From IMG/VR virus record IMGVR_UViG_3300035220_000425, positions 1-64,000 of that record: a stretch of 64,000 nt of DNA; one strand, written 5' to 3'. A model generated the notes under the pieces. It had not been told where the DNA came from. It made no database searches and saw only the letters and a program-made list of their open reading frames with translations. The position numbers and the translations under genes were made by a program. The DNA comes from a virus. Shown here one piece after another: positions 44,044 through 62,576 of this stretch. The stretch's first letter is position 1. Every line of letters starts with the position of its first letter.

Positions 44044-46623
44044 ATGGGATTAAGTAAAATTAGCGGCTCGGGTATTGATGACAATGTAATTGTACCTGCA
44101 AATCTACATTCTAGCTTTGTTCTACCTATTTCAAAACTTGCGACCGCTGGGGGTGTCACGTTTAATACGCTAGTTCAATGTGGTGGCGACCCTAATGATG
44201 GCAGTGCTGTTGGGGCGAAGATGCTTCAAAGTGGGGTTATTCAGGCAACTAGAGCGTCTGGGTCAGGAACCAGTGCTGTTTATATGGGATTTTTGCAGGG
44301 GACTTCTACTGCGACTTCAAGGATTAATGCAAACGGCAGTGCTACGTTTAGTGGTCAAGGTACTTTTAGTGGGGACTTAAGGGTTCAAGATGGTGGAAAT
44401 TTCAGAGTACGTAATGCTAGCAATGCAACTCAAGACGCTATTTTGCTCCAGAACAATGGCAACATAACAGCGGCAGGAGGAGCCACATTTGGTAGCGCAG
44501 TAAATGGACTTTATTTTTCAACAGACAGAACCAACGGCGGTAGTACTGTTCTTGAAGGCTACTTAAACGGCACAAAGAACGTAGATGTTAAGGCGAATGG
44601 CAGCGCCACGTTTGGCAATACAATCACATCGGGTTCCTCAACTGTTCGTGGTCAATTTCTAGGCAATTGTCCTTCAAGCATTACAGCATCGGCCGCCGAC
44701 GCTTTTATTGCTGATTACAATGGAACTACAGTCGCTCGTGTGAGATACGATGGATCCGCCACATTCAATGCCGGCAGCACTTTTGCTGGAATATGTGGGG
44801 GTTCGGCAGGAATTTACGTTGGAGACGCAACAACAACTAACCAAGGCAACGCCAAGGCTCGCATCAATTCCGACGGCAGTATCACTACTGTTAAATACAT
44901 TACGAGCACTCGTTTCACAGTTAATGGTGCTCTAAGTTCTAATGTAAATGGCGTTAACTATCCTTTTGCTGCTTATGACGGCAGTAGCAATCTTTATGCG
45001 TCGATTACCGAATCCGGGGACGCCACATTTGCTGGTGATGTAAATATCGGTAATTCGGCTAAAAATGCACAGTTGGCGGTTGGTGGTGTATACAACCAAG
45101 TTGGTTTAGCGGTTAGTGCTGGTGGAGCCAGTTACTCAAATTGCGCTGAATTTTATAATTCAGGTAATGTCCTTGCTGCATCAATCGGAGGGGATGGAGC
45201 CTCCACATTTAAGGGAACGGTTACCAGTGGTGGGAATCCAGCCAGTGGTGCAGCCAGAGGTACTTCAATCAATGAGTACGGTACTTTAAGGGCTGCGAAT
45301 ACAAGTGGCACCGTATTTGAAGGCTACACTGTAGGGACTGCAGCAACCACTTCGCAAATAACAGCGGCAGGAGCCGCCACATTTGCGACCAAGGTTACCG
45401 CCCCAGATTTTGATTCAAATCATCCAAATGATAGCAGATTCGGAAGATTTAACTGGGCAGGTATTCGTTTCACAAATACTTCTGGCAGCAACGTATTTCA
45501 GTTTGATGCTGATGCCGGTCAAATCACAACAAATGTTAAATCTGCTGGCCATATAGAACTTGACTCCACTGGATCTTTTAGTAGCCCTAAGGTAAAACTA
45601 TTTGCTAACACTGGTGCCGCCACATTTGCGGGTACGTTGAACGTAGGTTCTGTTCTTACCGCTAGTGGAGGTTTTCGTGCTAATTCTGAGGGTACAGTCT
45701 TCATCAACCCTGCATCATCTTTAGCAAGTACTGCAACTGTATTTTCAGCCTACGTAGATAGGTCTACTGGTACAGCGACGGCAGTAACATTCACGAAAGC
45801 AGGATCCGCCACATTTGCGGGTGTTCTTCAAGGTAATCAAAGAGTTGTAGTTAACGGTGCTGGGGGTAAATCAGGAACTGCAAATACTTTCTTGAACTAT
45901 GCTGGAGACGCAACGACAGTAACAGCATCAATCGATGCTAATGGCTTGGGTGTTTTTGATGGAGGAGTAAGAGTTACGCATACAGCAAATACAAGGCATT
46001 GTCGCATGCTTTATGACGGCATATATTCCACCGGTCAGGATCTGTATCTTTGGACAGGTACTACAAATAGCGTAATTTTTGGCAATAACAGTTCAGCAAA
46101 AATGATGCTCCAGTGTTCTACTGGCGCTTTATTAATTAACCGCACTTCCCAGAATAATCTTGGCAAGCTTTGTCTGGACTTTTACGGCCAAACAGAAAAC
46201 GGAATTGTTATAAAAAATACTTGGAATGCAAATAATGCCTACTTCGCTGTTTTTAGGAGTCAAGGTAATCACTTGGCTGGGGGCATTATACAAACGGCTT
46301 ACAATGCAGTTAATTACAGCAGTGGCTCTGACTACCGCTTAAAAGAAAATGTTATCGACATGCCTGATCCCATTGTTCGCATCAAAAAACTGAAGCCAAA
46401 ACGCTTTAACTTTATATCCGATATTGACAAGAATGAGGTCGATGGATTTCTTGCCCACGAAGCACAAGAAGTCGTACCCGAAGCGGTTGTAGGAGAAAAG
46501 GACGGCAAAGAAATGCAATCCATTGACCACAGCAGATTGGTCCCGCTACTCACTGCTGCTTTGAAGGAAGCAATATCAAGCATCGAAGCATTAGAATCAA
46601 GGGTGAAGACCCTTGAAAGCTAA
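44044..46623 (+). CDS. Tail fibre 5 with S74 chaperone, 859 aa
   Basis: N-terminus differs from the other four: LSKISGSGIDDNVIVPANLH replaces the attachment domain, so it may bind another fibre rather than the virion. The shaft has about ten strands of the SATF(A/G/S)G type, spaced roughly 45-70 residues. C-terminal S74 domain starts SGSDYRLKENVIDMPD with IKKLKPKRFNFISDID, GFLAHEAQEVVPEAV and a terminal coiled coil (ISSIEALESRVKTLES). DNA repeats in the shaft match those of fibre 3. Confidence 0.9.
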   Translation: MGLSKISGSGIDDNVIVPANLHSSFVLPISKLATAGGVTFNTLVQCGGDPNDGSAVGAKMLQSGVIQATRASGSGTSAVYMGFLQGTSTATSRINANGSATFSGQGTFSGDLRVQDGGNFRVRNASNATQDAILLQNNGNITAAGGATFGSAVNGLYFSTDRTNGGSTVLEGYLNGTKNVDVKANGSATFGNTITSGSSTVRGQFLGNCPSSITASAADAFIADYNGTTVARVRYDGSATFNAGSTFAGICGGSAGIYVGDATTTNQGNAKARINSDGSITTVKYITSTRFTVNGALSSNVNGVNYPFAAYDGSSNLYASITESGDATFAGDVNIGNSAKNAQLAVGGVYNQVGLAVSAGGASYSNCAEFYNSGNVLAASIGGDGASTFKGTVTSGGNPASGAARGTSINEYGTLRAANTSGTVFEGYTVGTAATTSQITAAGAATFATKVTAPDFDSNHPNDSRFGRFNWAGIRFTNTSGSNVFQFDADAGQITTNVKSAGHIELDSTGSFSSPKVKLFANTGAATFAGTLNVGSVLTASGGFRANSEGTVFINPASSLASTATVFSAYVDRSTGTATAVTFTKAGSATFAGVLQGNQRVVVNGAGGKSGTANTFLNYAGDATTVTASIDANGLGVFDGGVRVTHTANTRHCRMLYDGIYSTGQDLYLWTGTTNSVIFGNNSSAKMMLQCSTGALLINRTSQNNLGKLCLDFYGQTENGIVIKNTWNANNAYFAVFRSQGNHLAGGIIQTAYNAVNYSSGSDYRLKENVIDMPDPIVRIKKLKPKRFNFISDIDKNEVDGFLAHEAQEVVPEAVVGEKDGKEMQSIDHSRLVPLLTAALKEAISSIEALESRVKTLES
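44476..45822 (+). repeat. In-gene DNA repeats GCCGCCACATTTGCGGG (fibre 5)
   Basis: Copies near 44476, 44602, 44749, 45016, 45193, 45368, 45613 and 45800-45822; the last matches the first fibre-3 copy over 20 bases (GGATCCGCCACATTTGCGGG). Confidence 0.75.
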
Positions 46624-47434: not shown

Positions 47435-47620
47435 ATGTCATTTATCACAACAGCAATCGACAAATCACCGGAATTTATCACAGCCTTATTTACCATTCAC
47501 GCTGCAGCAGTCGCTATTGTCAACCTGACGCCGACTCCTAAAGATGACGAGATTGTAGCTAAGTTTTACAGAATTATTGAAATTCTTGCAGGTCTCGTAT
47601 CAAGAACTGCTAAGAGATGA
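47435..47620 (+). CDS. Small hydrophobic protein, holin-like candidate, 61 aa
   Basis: The middle is hydrophobic (FITALFTIHAAAVAIVNLTP, residues about 14-33) and the rest polar (TPTPKDDEIVAKFYRIIE). Small proteins with the VNLTPTPKDDE motif lie near endolysins in other phages, as I recall. One span with a basic C-terminus fits a class III-like holin. It overlaps the next gene by four bases (ATGA). Confidence 0.55.
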   Translation: MSFITTAIDKSPEFITALFTIHAAAVAIVNLTPTPKDDEIVAKFYRIIEILAGLVSRTAKR

Positions 47621-47796
47621 AAGAAATTGTACGTAATCCTTTAATGGCAGATAGGCCTTTAAGAGAAGCTCGAATGCGGATATGTAGATCTTGTCCGTTC
47701 TACCAAAGGAATATAAAAAGATGTTCAAAGTGTGGCTGCATAGTGCCTGCAAAAGTATGGGTTCAAAATTCTAAGTGCCCTGTCAGTAAATGGTAG
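47617..47796 (+). CDS. Zinc-ribbon mini-protein A, 59 aa
   Basis: Cysteines are arranged CRSCPFY ... CSKCGCIVPAKV ... CPVSKW, giving at least three CxxC-like pairs expected to bind one or two zinc ions. Proteins with this CxxC ... CxxCGCxxxxK ... CPxxKW order are frequent in marine phages; function unknown. It overlaps both neighbours, including paralogue B by seven bases. Confidence 0.7.
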   Translation: MKEIVRNPLMADRPLREARMRICRSCPFYQRNIKRCSKCGCIVPAKVWVQNSKCPVSKW

Positions 47797-47942
47797 ATTT
47801 AGCTCAAGCCAAAGAGCGTTACAGCATTTGCAAGAAATGTGAGTACTTAGAAAGGAATCATAAGCGCTGCACCCTTTGCATGTGTTACGCAAATTGCAAA
47901 GTAGAAAAGCCAGAAGAAACCTGTCCACTCGGTAAGTGGTAA
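47790..47942 (+). CDS. Zinc-ribbon mini-protein B, 50 aa
   Basis: Paralogue of the preceding gene: CKKCEYLER ... CTLCMCYANCKVEK ... CPLGKW. The pair probably arose by tandem duplication; CGC of copy A is CMC in B. Overlapping starts show translational coupling. Lying before the endolysin, it may be late-expressed. Confidence 0.7.
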   Translation: MVDLAQAKERYSICKKCEYLERNHKRCTLCMCYANCKVEKPEETCPLGKW

Positions 47943-49699: not shown

Positions 49700-51439
49700 T
49701 CAGATAATTGAGGTTGCTTTTCTGTGAACTTCTGACCTCGTATTGTCGCTTTCAACAAAAGAACATTCATAAGCGATACGAATTACACTTTTGTCAATAA
49801 AGCCTTTTACGCTGTCAAGTGTTCCTTTATCTTCTGACCATAAAGCTTGTCCGCCTCTGACTTTAGAGTGCCATATCTCAAGGTCTCTCTTAGGTGAATC
49901 TGCTTCTGTCCGTTCTTTCCTGACAAGCCAGCAAGCATGCGAGACATGAGCTAACGCATCGGTCCCTCTTATTTCATTCAATTGTGGCTCAGCATTAGAA
50001 GTGCTATCTAGTCCAATCCTGTTCATTTGAGCAAGAACAAAGAGATCAATGTCTAGCTCTTTAGCTGCTGTCATAAGTCGATAAGCTCTATCCTCTAGCA
50101 TTGAAGATTGGTTGCTGGCCGATCCACCTTTATGGCGAGCCAAAGCATGAAAATGATCCAGTACTATTGCTCTAAGCTCTGGATTTTTCGCTTTCATACT
50201 TCTCATGGTGTTTATGGCACTTTCAACGCAAGCACCCCACGGAGCTTCGACTAAAATGTTGCCGCCTCGGCTCTCAAGAGACATGGAGACGTTGGAGACA
50301 ATCTCTGCAATTTTTGATTGAGACTTGGTCGATCCAGGTAGTTCTAGTTCTCTGACTGTTACAAATCCTAAGTCGTCAGAATCAAGCCTGCTGTAATGTA
50401 TAGGATGAAAAGTTTTTGTTAAGTTTGCGATTATTCTTGCTTCAATTGATCTGTTATCAAGCTCGGCCGATATAAACCCGACGGTTAAAGACCCGGCGGC
50501 TAGCTGGCAGGCAATATGGACCCCTAGAGCCGTCTTGCCTACCCCGGTTCTGGCGGCAATAGTCATAAGCCTTCCAGCCTTAGGCATATTTGGCCTCGGC
50601 GGAGCCACTCCACCTTCAATGTCTAAGTCAAAAGCAAAAACTCCAGTCGAAACCGGTTTGTCTTGCTCTGCAGCATTCAAGATGTAGTCAGCCCAGTTCA
50701 ACCGGTTAGACCCTGGACTTCCAGTAATGCTTTCCATTAAGTCTACGATTTGCCCTTGGTTCCCTATAGATCCACTAAGCATGCTTATGCATTCCATGCT
50801 TCTCTCATGCAGAAATTTCAGCGCTTTTTGAATATTAGGATCAGTTTTTAGATACTGATTGGATTCGTAAAGAGTATCTCTATAAAGAGAAGAAACACGC
50901 TTCTGCTTAAGGACATCGAGAGCGGTGTCCCATTCGATCTCTTCGTCACCATACCTATCAATAGTCTCTTGGTCCGAAAGCTCACTTATGGTTTCGCAAA
51001 AGTCCATAAAAGAACAGAAAGAATTGTTGCTTATAATAGCTTCATAACCTGTTACTAAGCTATCTTTAGATATTAATTTGCCAGTACGTTCTCCTAGGAA
51101 AGTTAAATCAATTTCTCTTGCAATTGCTTTAAACTCGGTGCTTGACCAAAGAGTTGAAGGCAACTCCTGTCCATGCCCTACTCCAAAAGCCGTCCTGACT
51201 TGTGACCATAGTTCTTTCGCTAGACCAGAAGGCTTGCTAAGAACTCTAGTGAGAACGATTGCCTCTTGGTTCTTCGTGTCTTCACGTTCTAATATTGTCG
51301 AAGGTTGCAGTTTCTCTACAAGTCGTGCTGTTTTCGTTACAGATTCTACGGCTCCGACGTTGACTTCAACAATTTTTCCACCTTCTTCCTTTAGTAGCCC
51401 CAAGTCTAAGGCTTTTTGGATATAGTACGGAAATTCCAT
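49700..51439 (-). CDS. Replicative DNA helicase, DnaB-type
   Basis: About 579 residues. The C-terminal half is a RecA-like motor: Walker A AARTGVGKTALG (near residue 295), LTVGFISAELDNRSIEARI (motif 1a with DnaB-like SxEMxxxxxxxR pattern), Walker B RAIVLDHFHALA (near 425), then DLFVLAQMNRIGLD and LNEIRGTDALAHVSHACWLV. The N-terminal ~270 residues are divergent helices. Start: ATG 51439, one base after the initiator stop, with GGAG ten bases before; GTG 51457 is an alternative. It would unwind DNA at the fork together with the primase at 61017. Confidence 0.85.
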   Translation of the reverse strand: MEFPYYIQKALDLGLLKEEGGKIVEVNVGAVESVTKTARLVEKLQPSTILEREDTKNQEAIVLTRVLSKPSGLAKELWSQVRTAFGVGHGQELPSTLWSSTEFKAIAREIDLTFLGERTGKLISKDSLVTGYEAIISNNSFCSFMDFCETISELSDQETIDRYGDEEIEWDTALDVLKQKRVSSLYRDTLYESNQYLKTDPNIQKALKFLHERSMECISMLSGSIGNQGQIVDLMESITGSPGSNRLNWADYILNAAEQDKPVSTGVFAFDLDIEGGVAPPRPNMPKAGRLMTIAARTGVGKTALGVHIACQLAAGSLTVGFISAELDNRSIEARIIANLTKTFHPIHYSRLDSDDLGFVTVRELELPGSTKSQSKIAEIVSNVSMSLESRGGNILVEAPWGACVESAINTMRSMKAKNPELRAIVLDHFHALARHKGGSASNQSSMLEDRAYRLMTAAKELDIDLFVLAQMNRIGLDSTSNAEPQLNEIRGTDALAHVSHACWLVRKERTEADSPKRDLEIWHSKVRGGQALWSEDKGTLDSVKGFIDKSVIRIAYECSFVESDNTRSEVHRKATSII

Positions 51440-51440
51440 T

Positions 51441-52358
51441 TCAGAAAGGCTCCACACTAATACTCGCTTGTTTTAATTCATCGTCAACTTTTTTCAAATA
51501 CATAGTCCATTTTTTTATTTCATTTATATCGCCACTTACTTTTGCTTTTTCAAGCCTAAATGTATATTCTTTGTAGCTATTTATTAAATCTTGATCATCC
51601 TGAGAGATGTAAGCATTATTTGACTCTTCATGCATGTCGATACCTAAGAAATATAGTAATTCGACGTTTCTAAGCTTTTTGTCAAGCGTCTTTCCGTATC
51701 CAAAAATAGTACTAAAAGTTTTAGAAGAATTTTTATTTAGCCAGAAGTCATCTTTATGAATACCTTCGCAGACCCCTTTTATAAATTCAGACAATTGTTT
51801 CCGTGACAAAGTTAAGTTTTTCAGATGCGCCAATACGGCTTCTTCTTGCTTCTTAGTTATTTTTCTTACAGACTGGTAACTTTTTGGCCTGTAAGTATTC
51901 CATGCATCCTTGCAAATTTCCATGTAATCAACCTCTTCTTTCTTGATTTTTTCCTGTACTTTTTGGATTTCTATTTTCGGTTCTTGAGAATAATCAAACC
52001 GATGATCAATCCGTGTAATAGTTTCTTTGCTTATCTTGCAAAAAGCCTTGTATGGGTCATGCATTATAACTACTCCACAATTATCTATGGTTATAAATCC
52101 TTCTTCAACAAGTTGTGAAAGACAACTTCTCCGAGATTTTGTCCCGCAAGACAAAGAAGATTCGCAGTCAGACCAGTGTATATTCTTGTTCCCAGGATGT
52201 ATTGAAGCTAGCCAGAGCCATAAAAGTCGAGCTTGCATCGTAAGCCGATCGTTGAAGATTATTTCCGCCTTAGGGGCTCTAACCCATCCTCCCTCATAGT
52301 CCCACGACCTTGAAATAGATGTCAGTGGACCCCTTGGCAGGGTGATCTCATCAACCAT
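51441..52358 (-). CDS. Winged-helix replication initiator-like protein, 305 aa
   Basis: Start ATG 52358 is chosen over 52379 because AAGGA lies seven bases before it. Residues about 30-95 form a winged helix: RLTMQARLLWLWLASIHPGN, CGTKSRRSCLSQLVEEGFI, a pattern of phage replisome organisers. The rest is helical and charged (KVQEKIKKEEVDYMEICKDA; ISQDDQDLINSYKEYTFRLE). Gene order initiator-helicase and iteron-like repeats directly upstream of its start strongly suggest an O-protein-like role: bind the origin and load the helicase. Confidence 0.6.
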   Translation of the reverse strand: MVDEITLPRGPLTSISRSWDYEGGWVRAPKAEIIFNDRLTMQARLLWLWLASIHPGNKNIHWSDCESSLSCGTKSRRSCLSQLVEEGFITIDNCGVVIMHDPYKAFCKISKETITRIDHRFDYSQEPKIEIQKVQEKIKKEEVDYMEICKDAWNTYRPKSYQSVRKITKKQEEAVLAHLKNLTLSRKQLSEFIKGVCEGIHKDDFWLNKNSSKTFSTIFGYGKTLDKKLRNVELLYFLGIDMHEESNNAYISQDDQDLINSYKEYTFRLEKAKVSGDINEIKKWTMYLKKVDDELKQASISVEPF

Positions 52359-52409
52359 GAAAAATTCCTTATGAGCCATGATAAAGACGATGTCAAGTGT
52401 GTCTTGGGG

Positions 52410-52519
52410 GGGTGAACTGAGAGGTTACCTGCGGGAACCCTGGGGTGACCTAAAGCAATCCCTAAGGGTTACCTCAGTACAGGTTTGGGGTTTACTCAGG
52501 AAACCCCAGAGGGTGAACT
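52410..52519 (+). repeat. Iteron-like array, candidate replication origin or operator
   Basis: Six copies of GGGT(G/T)A(A/C)CT or close variants start at 52410, 52422, 52443, 52466, 52488 and 52511. The last four are spaced 23, 22 and 23 bases, near two helical turns. Some copies continue as CTCAG/CTGAG. An AT-rich stretch (52530-52570) follows. It lies between the divergent initiator and rightward operon. Confidence 0.7.
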
Positions 52520-52542
52520 GGGTACACCCCACTTATAAGATA

Positions 52543-52548
52543 TATAAT
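52543..52548 (+). promoter_or_regulatory. Candidate rightward early promoter (-10)
   Basis: TATAAT inside an AT-rich stretch just after the repeat array, 50 bases before ATG 52598; the expected -35 region would fall in or beside the last repeat, so a repeat-binding protein could repress it. Confidence 0.4.
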
Positions 52549-52597
52549 AAGATCAAATTAAGATTAGTAATCAGACCAAAAGTTGAGGAAGGATTAA

Positions 52598-52867
52598 ATG
52601 GCAGGACCAGGCAGGCCGAGAAGAAAGAGGGCTCTCACTCAGGCTCAGAAGGAGGAGCGGCGAGCTCGCTACAACAGCAATCGCCAGAAAGCTCGGGGCA
52701 TTCAAGCCAAAGAGCTAAGGGAAGCCAGGAAAGAGTGGGAGGACATCGGCTGGATAGTCAGCAAGATGAGCAATCAAGCAAAAATGAGCCAAGAGGCTAT
52801 CTATGAGGTATTAGGAGGAGTGTTTACAAAATCAAAAATTCTTGAATGGAGCAGAAAAGGTAGATAA
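52598..52867 (+). CDS. Basic DNA-binding-like protein, 89 aa
   Basis: ATG 52598, with GAGGAAGG about six bases before it. The first half is very basic (GPGRPRRKRALTQAQKEERR), including an AT-hook-like GRPRR, then helices (ELREARKEWEDIGWIVSKMS) and a helix-turn-helix-like end (MSQEAIYEVLGGVFTKSKI). First gene of the rightward operon next to the repeats: a regulator or origin-binding protein is possible. A larger overlapping frame from 52378 crosses the repeat array and is not real. Confidence 0.6.
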   Translation: MAGPGRPRRKRALTQAQKEERRARYNSNRQKARGIQAKELREARKEWEDIGWIVSKMSNQAKMSQEAIYEVLGGVFTKSKILEWSRKGR

Positions 52868-53786: not shown

Positions 53787-54575
53787 TTGAAAGGTCGGGA
53801 CGCAGTCTCCTTTTGGTTAGAGAACGCTGGTAGATATCCTGTTTTACCGGTAGCCACAGTACTTCATCTTTCAAAGCAAATCCAGACTTTGGAAGAAGAT
53901 GACCCTCGAAGGAAGAAGGCTATAGATAAGCTTATTAAGCACAATTTGAAGCTAATTCCTCAACAGGTCCGAAGGATCGTAAAGGCGAGGAAGTGCTACA
54001 CCACTCCAGGAGCGACTCAAGAGGATTTATTGCAAGCTGGTGTCCTTGGGCTGCAAAAGGCCGCTGAAAAATATGATTACACCAGAGGCTACGCTTTTAG
54101 CACGTATGCCGTGAATTGGATCTATCAGCAAATCCAAAGGACTTCATACGCAAACCTGTCGATCGTAAGAGTGCCAGAGAACACTCTTAACGAGTTTTAT
54201 AGAGCTCATAACTCTCAAAATAAAGCTGACATCTCTTCCCTTTCAGAAAACGTGAAAAAGCGCTTCGACGACGCGAAGCTTGCCTTATTTGTTCGCTCTG
54301 CTGATCAGACGCAGCACAACCGATTGACTCATGAAAGCTATGACTGTCACTTGGGATCTTATTATGACGCTCCGCTACTTGATTCTGTCACTGACATATT
54401 CAAGTTATGCCCTGCCTTGAGCACCCTTGAGAAGAAATTGGTCATAGGACGCGCCATTGAGGGCAAGGACTACAAGGAACTAGGTGCCAAATACAGCATT
54501 TCATCTCATTATGCTTCTAAATTAATCAGAGGCGCACTGCAAAGGCTGCGCCAGGCTATGAACCAGATAGACTGA
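53787..54575 (+). CDS. Sigma-70-family factor A, 262 aa
   Basis: TTG 53787 is kept because it restores region 1.2 (FWLENAGRYPVLPVATVLHL aligns with the YLxxIGRxPLL of cyanobacterial sigmas). Region 2 is clear: LIKHNLKLIPQQVRRI, TQEDLLQAGVLGLQKAAEKY (2.1-2.2), then YTRGYAFSTYAVNWIYQQIQ (2.3-2.4), with VRVPEN after it. The C-terminal part (STLEKKLVIGRAIEGKDYKE, HYASKLIRGALQRLRQAM) is a region-4-like helix-turn-helix. It would redirect host RNA polymerase core to phage promoters. Two terminators precede it; the sigma gene B lies 6 kb on. Confidence 0.85.
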   Translation: MKGRDAVSFWLENAGRYPVLPVATVLHLSKQIQTLEEDDPRRKKAIDKLIKHNLKLIPQQVRRIVKARKCYTTPGATQEDLLQAGVLGLQKAAEKYDYTRGYAFSTYAVNWIYQQIQRTSYANLSIVRVPENTLNEFYRAHNSQNKADISSLSENVKKRFDDAKLALFVRSADQTQHNRLTHESYDCHLGSYYDAPLLDSVTDIFKLCPALSTLEKKLVIGRAIEGKDYKELGAKYSISSHYASKLIRGALQRLRQAMNQID

Positions 54576-60384: not shown

Positions 60385-61014
60385 ATGGCAAGAAAAGCTA
60401 AGTCATTCAGGCTTAATGAAGTACAGCAGCGGCTAGCTTCAGATAATATAAATCTAGCCAGGAGAGAAGCTTGGCGATTGCAAAGAACTACAGAAATTGA
60501 CTATGATACTTTAGAAGGTGCAGCTTTGGAAGGTTTATGCAAGGCCGCATATAGATACGATGCTTCGTCGGGGTATAAATTTAGCAGTCTTGCCGTTCCT
60601 ACAATAAGAGGTGAATTGCTTCATTATATAAGAGATCGCACTTATTCAATGAAACTAACTCATAGAATGCGCGAAACCTGGATAAAAGGAAGGCGTCTTA
60701 TTTATAAAGGATTTACTGACACTGAGATAGCAATAGCTTTAGAGATAGACCAGCAAGATTGGCAGGAAATAAAAAGCGTTTGTTCTGGACCTCCATTAGA
60801 ACTGACAGATCAAGCAAAATCAAGAGAAGAACTGGAACCAGATGAAATTGATTTTTATCTAACCTTTAAGGAGATAGCCGAGCAGTCCTGGGACCGCTTA
60901 AAGGAAGAGGACCAATCGGCTATCTTGAAATATTATGAAGGCGCCTCGTCGAAGCCTCCTCATGGTTGCCTACAAAGGTTATTTGAATTAGCCTATGAGA
61001 GCGATCTTTTTTAG
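60385..61014 (+). CDS. Sigma-70-family factor B (SigF/SigB-like), 209 aa
   Basis: Region 2: NINLARREAWRLQRTTEIDY, EGAALEGLCKAAYRYDASSG, YKFSSLAVPTIRGELLHYIR, closely following cyanobacterial SigF text (AERFDPSKGxxFSSFAVPxIRGExxHYLRD). Region 3 is LTHRMRETWIKGRRLIYKGF. The C-terminal region 4 appears shortened and lacks a clear helix-turn-helix. So it may bind -10 elements mainly, perhaps with other phage factors. It lies directly before primase and after terL. Confidence 0.8.
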   Translation: MARKAKSFRLNEVQQRLASDNINLARREAWRLQRTTEIDYDTLEGAALEGLCKAAYRYDASSGYKFSSLAVPTIRGELLHYIRDRTYSMKLTHRMRETWIKGRRLIYKGFTDTEIAIALEIDQQDWQEIKSVCSGPPLELTDQAKSREELEPDEIDFYLTFKEIAEQSWDRLKEEDQSAILKYYEGASSKPPHGCLQRLFELAYESDLF

Positions 61015-61016
61015 CC

Positions 61017-62576
61017 TTGGCAATTTCAGATGAAAGTCTTGAGGCTATTAAGGAGCTAAAAATATCTTCTGTCTTAGAGAATCAAGGTATTCGGCTAAAA
61101 AGAGTTGGCAGAGAATTTGTTACTCAATGCTGCTGGCATTCAGACACTAACCCTTCATTGACGATTTCTGATGACAAAGGATTCCTCTTTTGTCATGTAT
61201 GCCGGGAAGGAGGAGATGTAATTAAATTTTTTATGAAAAAATATGGTCTTAGCTTCAGAGACGCTTGTGAGAAAATAGCCGGACAGAACAATTTGTACCT
61301 TAATTTCAAGGAAGAAGACCCCGAAAAAGCTGCTGAAAGGAAAAAGTTAATTGCGAACGCTCTTTCTCAGACGACGCGACAACAGTCCTTATATAGATCT
61401 AGTCTAAAAGGGTCTACTGTTGCGATTGATTTTATAAAAGACCGTAAGATATTGCCTGAGACTTCTCGTTTGTTCGGGTTAGGCTTCGATCGTAATCAGA
61501 ACAGGATTACGATACCGATTCAAAACCGCCATGGCGATATTGTTGGGTTTACTGCCCGCTCTATTGGTGAAGAAAAACCAAAATACAAAAACACGGCTAA
61601 CAATGAAATATTTACTAAATCAGATCTTGTCTTTAATGAGTTCAACGCGACTGAAAGCATCCGAGAGTTGGACTATTGTATTTTTGTAGAAGGACATTTT
61701 GATGTTATCTCTATGCGTCAGGCTGGTTTTGCAAATTGCGTAGCAATACAAGGGACAGCGTCTCCTTCTGATCAAGTAATTGAAAGGCTTAGCAGGAAAT
61801 CTAATAAATTTATCCTTTGTATGGATGCAGACGCTGGAGGGGTCAAAGCTGTCGGCTTATTCTTGCAATCTATTCAAAAAAAAGCACTGCGTGGTGATTT
61901 GGATGTAAAAATAGCTGTTCTTCAGGGTTGTAAAGATCCTGATGAAGCAATAAAGCTAGGGCTAGATATGCACAACGTTATTTCTAATGCATCTCCATGG
62001 ATCGACTGGATTCTAGATCAATGGCTCGGATCTTTAGATTTTTCAGACCAATCAAAATTGCAAGATGTGGAGAAAAAAATAAAGGCTTTGCTATCTCAGA
62101 TAAGTAGTGCGGCGTTAAGAACTCATTATTTTGACAAGTGTGCAATTGCCTTGGCACAAAATCGCCAGAATGTGGCAGCACAAATACTTAAAAACTTTTT
62201 ATCTGGGACAAAGTTACAAAGCAAAAGCAGTGTATGGCATAAACCTGAAAAAGGATGGACCAGGCAGGAAGCGGAAAAGAAATTGCTCAGACTTTACATT
62301 CACCATAATGATTTAAGGCAGCTACTTAGACCTATGATGGAGTTTTTAATAGTCCCTGACATGATATGGCTATGGAACCGCATTCTTGAACTTGAGTCTC
62401 ATTATACTATTGGGTTTACCAAAGAATCATTGATGGCAATTTTAGCAGTAGCAGAGCCTATCTATATGCAAAAACTTCGTCCGATAACTGTGCCAACTAT
62501 TTCAATTAGTTCATCATTATCTGTAGTGATGCATATAGAAGATGTCATGTTTAGCCAATCTGCTTTGAACGCTTAA
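61017..62576 (+). CDS. DNA primase, DnaG-type
   Basis: 519 residues from TTG 61017. N-terminal CHC2-type zinc finger: CCWHSDTNPSLTISDD, FLFCHVCREGGDVIKFF (near residues 37-72). TOPRIM core: CIFVEGHFDVISMRQAGFAN (catalytic Glu near 222), LCMDADAGGVKAV (DxD near 268). N-terminal catalytic motif RITIPIQNRHGDIVGFTARS is DnaG-like. The C-terminal third is helical and may bind helicase. It would prime replication with the leftward DnaB-type helicase. Confidence 0.9.
   Translation: MAISDESLEAIKELKISSVLENQGIRLKRVGREFVTQCCWHSDTNPSLTISDDKGFLFCHVCREGGDVIKFFMKKYGLSFRDACEKIAGQNNLYLNFKEEDPEKAAERKKLIANALSQTTRQQSLYRSSLKGSTVAIDFIKDRKILPETSRLFGLGFDRNQNRITIPIQNRHGDIVGFTARSIGEEKPKYKNTANNEIFTKSDLVFNEFNATESIRELDYCIFVEGHFDVISMRQAGFANCVAIQGTASPSDQVIERLSRKSNKFILCMDADAGGVKAVGLFLQSIQKKALRGDLDVKIAVLQGCKDPDEAIKLGLDMHNVISNASPWIDWILDQWLGSLDFSDQSKLQDVEKKIKALLSQISSAALRTHYFDKCAIALAQNRQNVAAQILKNFLSGTKLQSKSSVWHKPEKGWTRQEAEKKLLRLYIHHNDLRQLLRPMMEFLIVPDMIWLWNRILELESHYTIGFTKESLMAILAVAEPIYMQKLRPITVPTISISSSLSVVMHIEDVMFSQSALNA

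Follow-up and report, generated by a model that had tools for sequence, protein, structure and literature searches.

The replication origin of phage lambda consists of four inverted-repeat iterons of 18-19 bp beside a 38-bp AT-rich stretch, and O dimers interact across these iterons (PMC3985674, PMC3349717, PMC7466680). Lambda, P22 and phage L each have different iterons (PMC8022706). In the PLE satellites (phage-inducible chromosomal island-like elements) of Vibrio cholerae, whose origin and RepA were defined previously (PMC7145576), the DNA-binding domain of the initiator co-varies with the origin while its C-terminal domain is conserved, and replication is experimentally cognate-only; domains were swapped several times, and an origin-directed phage nuclease was proposed as the cause (PMC8263062). 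Iteron differences between lambdoid phages and modular origin/initiator switching in PLE satellites are thus already known. Here we describe a repeat array in a cyanosiphovirus-like genome, located between two divergent operons and upstream of a predicted initiator gene, in bases 1-64000 of the 64,089-bp IMG/VR virus record IMGVR_UViG_3300035220_000425 (hereafter the window). We think it likely, from comparative sequence analysis, that this array represents the iterons of a lambda-O-like theta origin and that, together with the DNA-binding domain of the initiator, it forms an exchangeable specificity cassette.

The first-pass annotation of this region had described six GGGT(G/T)A(A/C)CT units, four of them spaced by 22-23 bases, as direct repeats on one strand. 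We recovered all six on the plus strand, four as exact GGGTKAMCT copies (52410, 52443, 52466, and 52511) and two with one mismatch (52422, AGGTTACCT, and 52488, GGGTTTACT); the copies at 52443, 52466, 52488, and 52511 are separated by 23, 22, and 23 bp. The one-strand description had missed the minus-strand half-sites that alternate with these plus-strand units (e.g., at 52498-52507 and 52521-52530), so that the array is built of imperfect dyads of about 22 bp (TGGGGGTGTCCTCAGGCAACCCTT in the relatives), five of which lie in tandem in the 52409-52531 region. The same annotation had proposed to look for the repeats elsewhere in the genome: a single exact copy was found in the window outside the array (4695; chance expectation 1.24), and five copies were reached in none of 100 shuffles. 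As the units are degenerate, plain autocorrelation of the window's array alone gave a weak signal (lag 22, p 0.07), and we thus used instead a 24-bp matrix trained on 35 sites from seven relatives, the window being left out. This matrix recovered five non-overlapping dyads, at about 52419, 52440, 52463, 52485, and 52508, the weakest of which scores 15.6 on its better strand against 12.1 for the best site elsewhere in the 64 kb. None of 2000 dinucleotide-shuffled versions of the region gave five matches (mean 0.02). The statistical strength of the array thus comes from the relatives and not from the window alone.

The AT-rich flank that had been noted to the right of the array was confirmed: ACTTATAAGATATATAATAAG is at 52531-52551, the AT tract adjoins the last unit, and the 40 bp at 52532-52571 are the least stable of the whole window (fraction less stable 0.0000). 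This tract was set beforehand by the finding of the first-pass annotation, and those of the relatives were mostly chosen as the most AT/TA-rich stretch close to the initiator start, so that the low stability of the latter is partly a selection effect. The rightward promoter that had been placed at 52543 was not recovered: no sigma-70 match was found there, and the positions for its -35 box lie inside the array and vary between relatives. An additional operator role of the array alongside its proposed origin role is possible, as it lies between divergent operons.

Leftward of the array, the winged-helix gene and the DnaB-type helicase of the first-pass annotation were both supported, the former by structure prediction and the latter by profile matches (Table 1). 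For the initiator, we preferred the start at 52358 to the one at 52379 because the motif AAGGA lies upstream of 52358. The AlphaFold model of the 305-residue protein has a mean pLDDT (predicted local distance difference test score) of 88.4. It comprises a predicted N-terminal winged helix (helices 41-52, 62-69, and 73-85, wing 89-99), a linker of low confidence (pLDDT below 50 at residues 130-137), a helical domain (145-239) and a C-terminal pair of helices. The N-terminal domains of the relatives' initiators match the HTH_36, HTH_Crp_2, and MarR models, and their initiators match the PHROG families of DnaD-like helicase loaders and O-like initiators. The best named viral fold match of the window's initiator was a RepA-like initiator (1.8e-3), while a PDB fold search with the whole protein gave nothing significant. 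We found no Pfam match to the RepA_N domain among 40 members of the family, and the fold match to 5kbj was non-significant (E 1.4). The initiators of the S-CBS2 type (L042, L043, and L067) have a greater length and appear to contain the AWNxxKPExY-like C-terminal motif twice (second copy, AWDxxxKEGW).

The window's initiator, used as a direct query in viral contigs, retrieved no relative. With the helicase as bait, we obtained 12 and then 70 viral loci (the two sets overlap), including relatives in the cyanosiphoviruses S-CBS2, S-CRES1, and S-CRES3, whose hosts are Synechococcus. The prokaryote genome collection gave one locus, on a phage-like contig within a metagenome-assembled genome (MAG). 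The locus L086 (DGOV01000074.1), filed under a Proteobacteria MAG (UBA4457), is a phage module with the same open reading frame (ORF) coordinates as the phage contig L050, and is possibly misbinned. In all loci that were long enough, two fragments excepted, an ORF of 280-430 residues lies directly upstream of the helicase, and in nearly all relatives an array, followed by an AT tract adjoining its last unit, lies upstream of this initiator ORF. The succession of array, AT tract, initiator, and helicase is kept in about 70 loci. The arrays were significant (p 0.02 or better) in 41 of the 52 non-redundant loci, with a best lag of 21, 22, or 23 bp, the commonest period, in 27 of these 41. When classed by 6-mer cosine (cut-off 0.33), the 52 non-redundant arrays fell into about 27 sequence classes, e.g., GTTGCATTTTGCAAC, GTGGACAAGGTGTCCAC, GATCACTCNCCGATCA, and CATTTTGAGACC. 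The architecture of the array is conserved and its sequence is not. Mapped on the helicase tree, the 27 classes required 26 changes, a figure that depends on the cut-off and that we did not use as evidence of rate. Cyanophage PSS2 (L088) has a related helicase and upstream ORF without the divergent layout; direct repeats were looked for upstream and not found.

The array sequence follows the N-terminal domain of the initiator; it follows neither the C-terminal domain nor the right-hand gene. Array similarity correlated with the identity of the N-terminal domain (0.317) more than with that of the helicase (0.217) or the C-terminal domain (0.151), and the order was reversed for the 150 bp to the right of the AT tract (0.159 for the N-terminal domain, 0.268 for the C-terminal domain, and 0.388 for the helicase). 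In partial Mantel tests given the helicase, the array was correlated with the N-terminal domain (r 0.249, 0/500 permutations) and hardly with the C-terminal domain (r 0.041, 95/500 permutations). The correlation between array and N-terminal domain is modest, and single cases are stronger. S-CBS2 and L043 are 88% identical in the helicase and 87% in the C-terminal domain, but only 14% in the N-terminal domain, with an array similarity of 0.01. Their DNA flanks are 77-78% identical up to position 1073 and from position 1503, and the approximately 430 bp in between, which contain the N-terminal domain and the array, do not align. As the AT tract starts at 1501, the right edge of the replaced block lies within 2 bp of the array/AT junction. 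The same right edge was observed for L066 and L058, whose alignment resumes 1-3 bp past the AT start. L019/L020 and L021-L023 differ in array class but show no visible block swap; between them, the recognition helix is only 31-38% identical against 69-75% for the wing and 58-63% for the C-terminal domain. L024 and L025 share the array type and initiator type of the window but have a different right-hand ORF.

The locus thus combines several tandem candidate initiator sites at a regular spacing of 21-23 bp, an AT-rich candidate unwinding element adjoining them, and a linked initiator gene with a predicted DNA-binding domain that co-varies, and is exchanged as a block, with the array, as in an iteron-type origin. 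In the model that we propose, the N-terminal winged helix would bind the five dyads of about 22 bp, which are about two helical turns apart, probably as dimers and on one face of the DNA. The resulting nucleoprotein complex would strain and open the adjoining AT tract, the C-terminal domain of the initiator would recruit the neighboring DnaB-like helicase, and the DnaG-like primase would act after this recruitment. The array and the DNA-binding domain would change jointly, by block replacement or by changes in the helix-turn-helix, while the AT tract, the C-terminal domain, and the helicase stay. The anatomy, the conservation of the layout, the co-variation, and the block replacement were observed directly; what we infer for the initiator and its array is DNA binding, melting, loading of the helicase, and origin activity, along with any autoregulation through the array sites.

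The initiator-bound iteron origin anticipated by the first-pass annotation is well supported by comparison: by the layout shared by about 70 loci, the AT tract that is the least stable in the window, the co-variation, and the exchange between S-CBS2 and L043. Several observations nevertheless weigh against it. For the initiator of the window itself, Pfam and PHROG gave no match below 0.01 and 0.001, respectively, and the C-terminal domain of this protein has no significant Pfam or PDB fold match, so that the argument for helicase loading comes from the gene neighborhood. Seven of the significant loci have periods of 14-17, and six loci besides the window have arrays with p above 0.05. The GC skew across the window tracks gene direction and does not mark an origin independently. 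Finally, the same anatomy would fit a pure operator. The winged-helix protein would then be a transcription regulator, repressor or activator, of the two divergent operons between which the array sits, and replication would start elsewhere; MarR and Crp are among the regulator families that winged helices of this type match, and there is a weak leftward sigma-70-like match at the left edge of the array (52405-52378). This match is not above chance, and five units of two helical turns each, the last of them next to the least stable stretch of the window, exceed the needs of a simple operator. As the initiator gene is moreover always paired with the helicase and its relatives match replication-initiator PHROGs, we regard this explanation as unlikely.

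Alternatively, the protein encoded by the small rightward ORF (52598-52867), or another phage protein, could bind the array, whose match with the initiator would then be a coincidental linkage. This ORF is conserved, adjacent, and, in the window, basic, but we consider its involvement very improbable: L024 and L025 combine the window's array and initiator types with another right-hand ORF, related right-hand ORFs accompany unrelated arrays in many loci, the 150 bp to the right of the AT tract follow the helicase more closely than the N-terminal domain, opposite to the array, and the right side of S-CBS2 and L043 is conserved although the array was replaced. We give practically no credence to a chance cluster of short G-rich repeats without function. 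The simple autocorrelation of the window alone would leave room for it, but the relatives have arrays at the same place, and their matrix, from whose training the window was left out, found five dyads with no site as good elsewhere and a number of matches that no shuffle reached. The candidate origin remains our preferred reading; its features are listed in Table 1.

Table 1. Coordinates of the candidate origin and of the adjacent genes in the window.
Feature	Coordinates	Strand	Basis or remark
DnaB-like replicative helicase	49700..51457	-	PF03796 (DnaB_C) 4.8e-18; phrog_19 4.1e-25
Replication initiator (predicted), 305 aa	51441..52358	-	N-terminal winged helix, linker, helical C-terminal part
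Initiator C-terminal helical domain, residues 145-239, presumed helicase-recruiting	51642..51926	-	AlphaFold model
Predicted recognition helix, initiator residues 73-85	52104..52142	-	AlphaFold model; strong divergence where the array class changes without block swap
Leftmost half-site GGGGTGAACT	52409..52418	+	Outside the five full dyads
Dyad iteron 1 GAGAGGTTACCTGCGGGAACCCTG	52419..52442		Relatives' matrix score 15.8
Dyad iteron 2 CTGGGGTGACCTAAAGCAATCCCT	52440..52463		Score 14.7; other strand at 52441, 15.6
Dyad iteron 3 TAAGGGTTACCTCAGTACAGGTTT	52463..52486		Score 18.5
Dyad iteron 4, best copy TTGGGGTTTACTCAGGAAACCCCA	52485..52508		Score 28.6
Dyad iteron 5 AGAGGGTGAACTGGGTACACCCCA	52508..52531		Score 13.3; other strand at 52509, 15.6; adjoins the AT tract
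AT tract, presumed DNA unwinding element	52532..52571		Nearest-neighbor stability scan
Small conserved ORF	52598..52867	+	Gene 1 of the rightward early operon; related ORFs at the same place in relatives

For the small ORF, Pfam gave no match and PHROG none below 0.02; the family to which it belongs shows motifs like EIGxxI...WAWxLIGxLGIYxRW. The ORF is followed rightward by a Sak-like annealing protein (weak match, 0.0086), a sigma factor, and SSB, and further on by a DUF3799/exonuclease-like nuclease, a second sigma-like factor, and the DnaG-like primase (61017-62576). The window thus contains two distinct phage sigma-factor-like genes (53787-54575 and 60385-61014). By eye, two adjoining tiny ORFs (47617-47796 and 47790-47942) contain many paired cysteines (CxxC...CxxC) and are perhaps zinc-binding duplicates, and the long ORF at 44044-46623, with repeated GSATF-type motifs and a C-terminal LKENV...GFLAHEAQE, resembles a tail fiber with an autocleaving chaperone domain. 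The GC skew of the first 2000 bases (0.37) is well above that of the remainder of the window.

The replacements observed between relatives raise the question of their cause. It could be that these cyanophages are under continuing selection to change their origin specificity, with repeated exchange of a cassette comprising origin and DNA-binding domain and having its junction at the array/AT boundary, but we put this forward tentatively and with considerable doubt. Possible drivers of such specificity changes are origin-directed nucleases, satellites that hijack the initiator, and co-infecting relatives that compete for one another's initiator. If the proposed origin is real, it would place the replication origin of a group of cyanosiphoviruses and name their initiator family, which is unmatched as a whole in Pfam and has an undescribed C-terminal domain. 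It would also provide about 50 DNA-binding domains naturally paired with their targets, good data for learning how winged-helix specificity changes, and modular origin switching would have been seen in free phages, making the cause of the switching testable.

Among isolated cyanosiphoviruses, S-CBS2, S-CRES1, and S-CRES3 have the same gene order as the window, each with its own array, and their repeat sequences differ from that of the window. The genes of S-CRES1 and S-CRES3 carry the annotations DNA replication protein and DNA helicase, and the record stretches consulted for the three phages show no annotated array or origin. The locus resembles iteron plasmid origins in its tandem candidate initiator sites beside an AT-rich element and an initiator gene, but the initiator falls outside the recognized plasmid Rep families and the repeats are strong two-helical-turn dyads. 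Its resemblance to the lambda origin and O lies in the inverted-repeat iterons by an AT-rich stretch, in the winged-helix N-terminal domain (AlphaFold, with HTH_36 and O-like PHROG matches in some relatives), and in the proposed binding of initiator dimers to the iterons and recruitment of the helicase. Unlike in lambda, the initiator coding sequence does not contain the array, which is found upstream of its start codon (52358), there are five dyads with a spacing of 22-23 bp, the phage encodes its own DnaB-like helicase, and no relation between the C-terminal domain of the initiator and a known family could be detected. As a precedent for the behavior of the cassette, the PLE replicon comes closest; it differs in belonging to a satellite with a RepA_N initiator, three iterons of about 30 bp, and few origin types, whereas we found about 27 array classes in free phages, with a cassette junction at the AT tract that is directly visible here. 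What the present locus adds to these systems is thus an initiator family with an undescribed C-terminal domain, borne by free phages, in which about 27 array classes are set on one layout and an edge of the exchanged cassette can be seen where array and AT tract meet.
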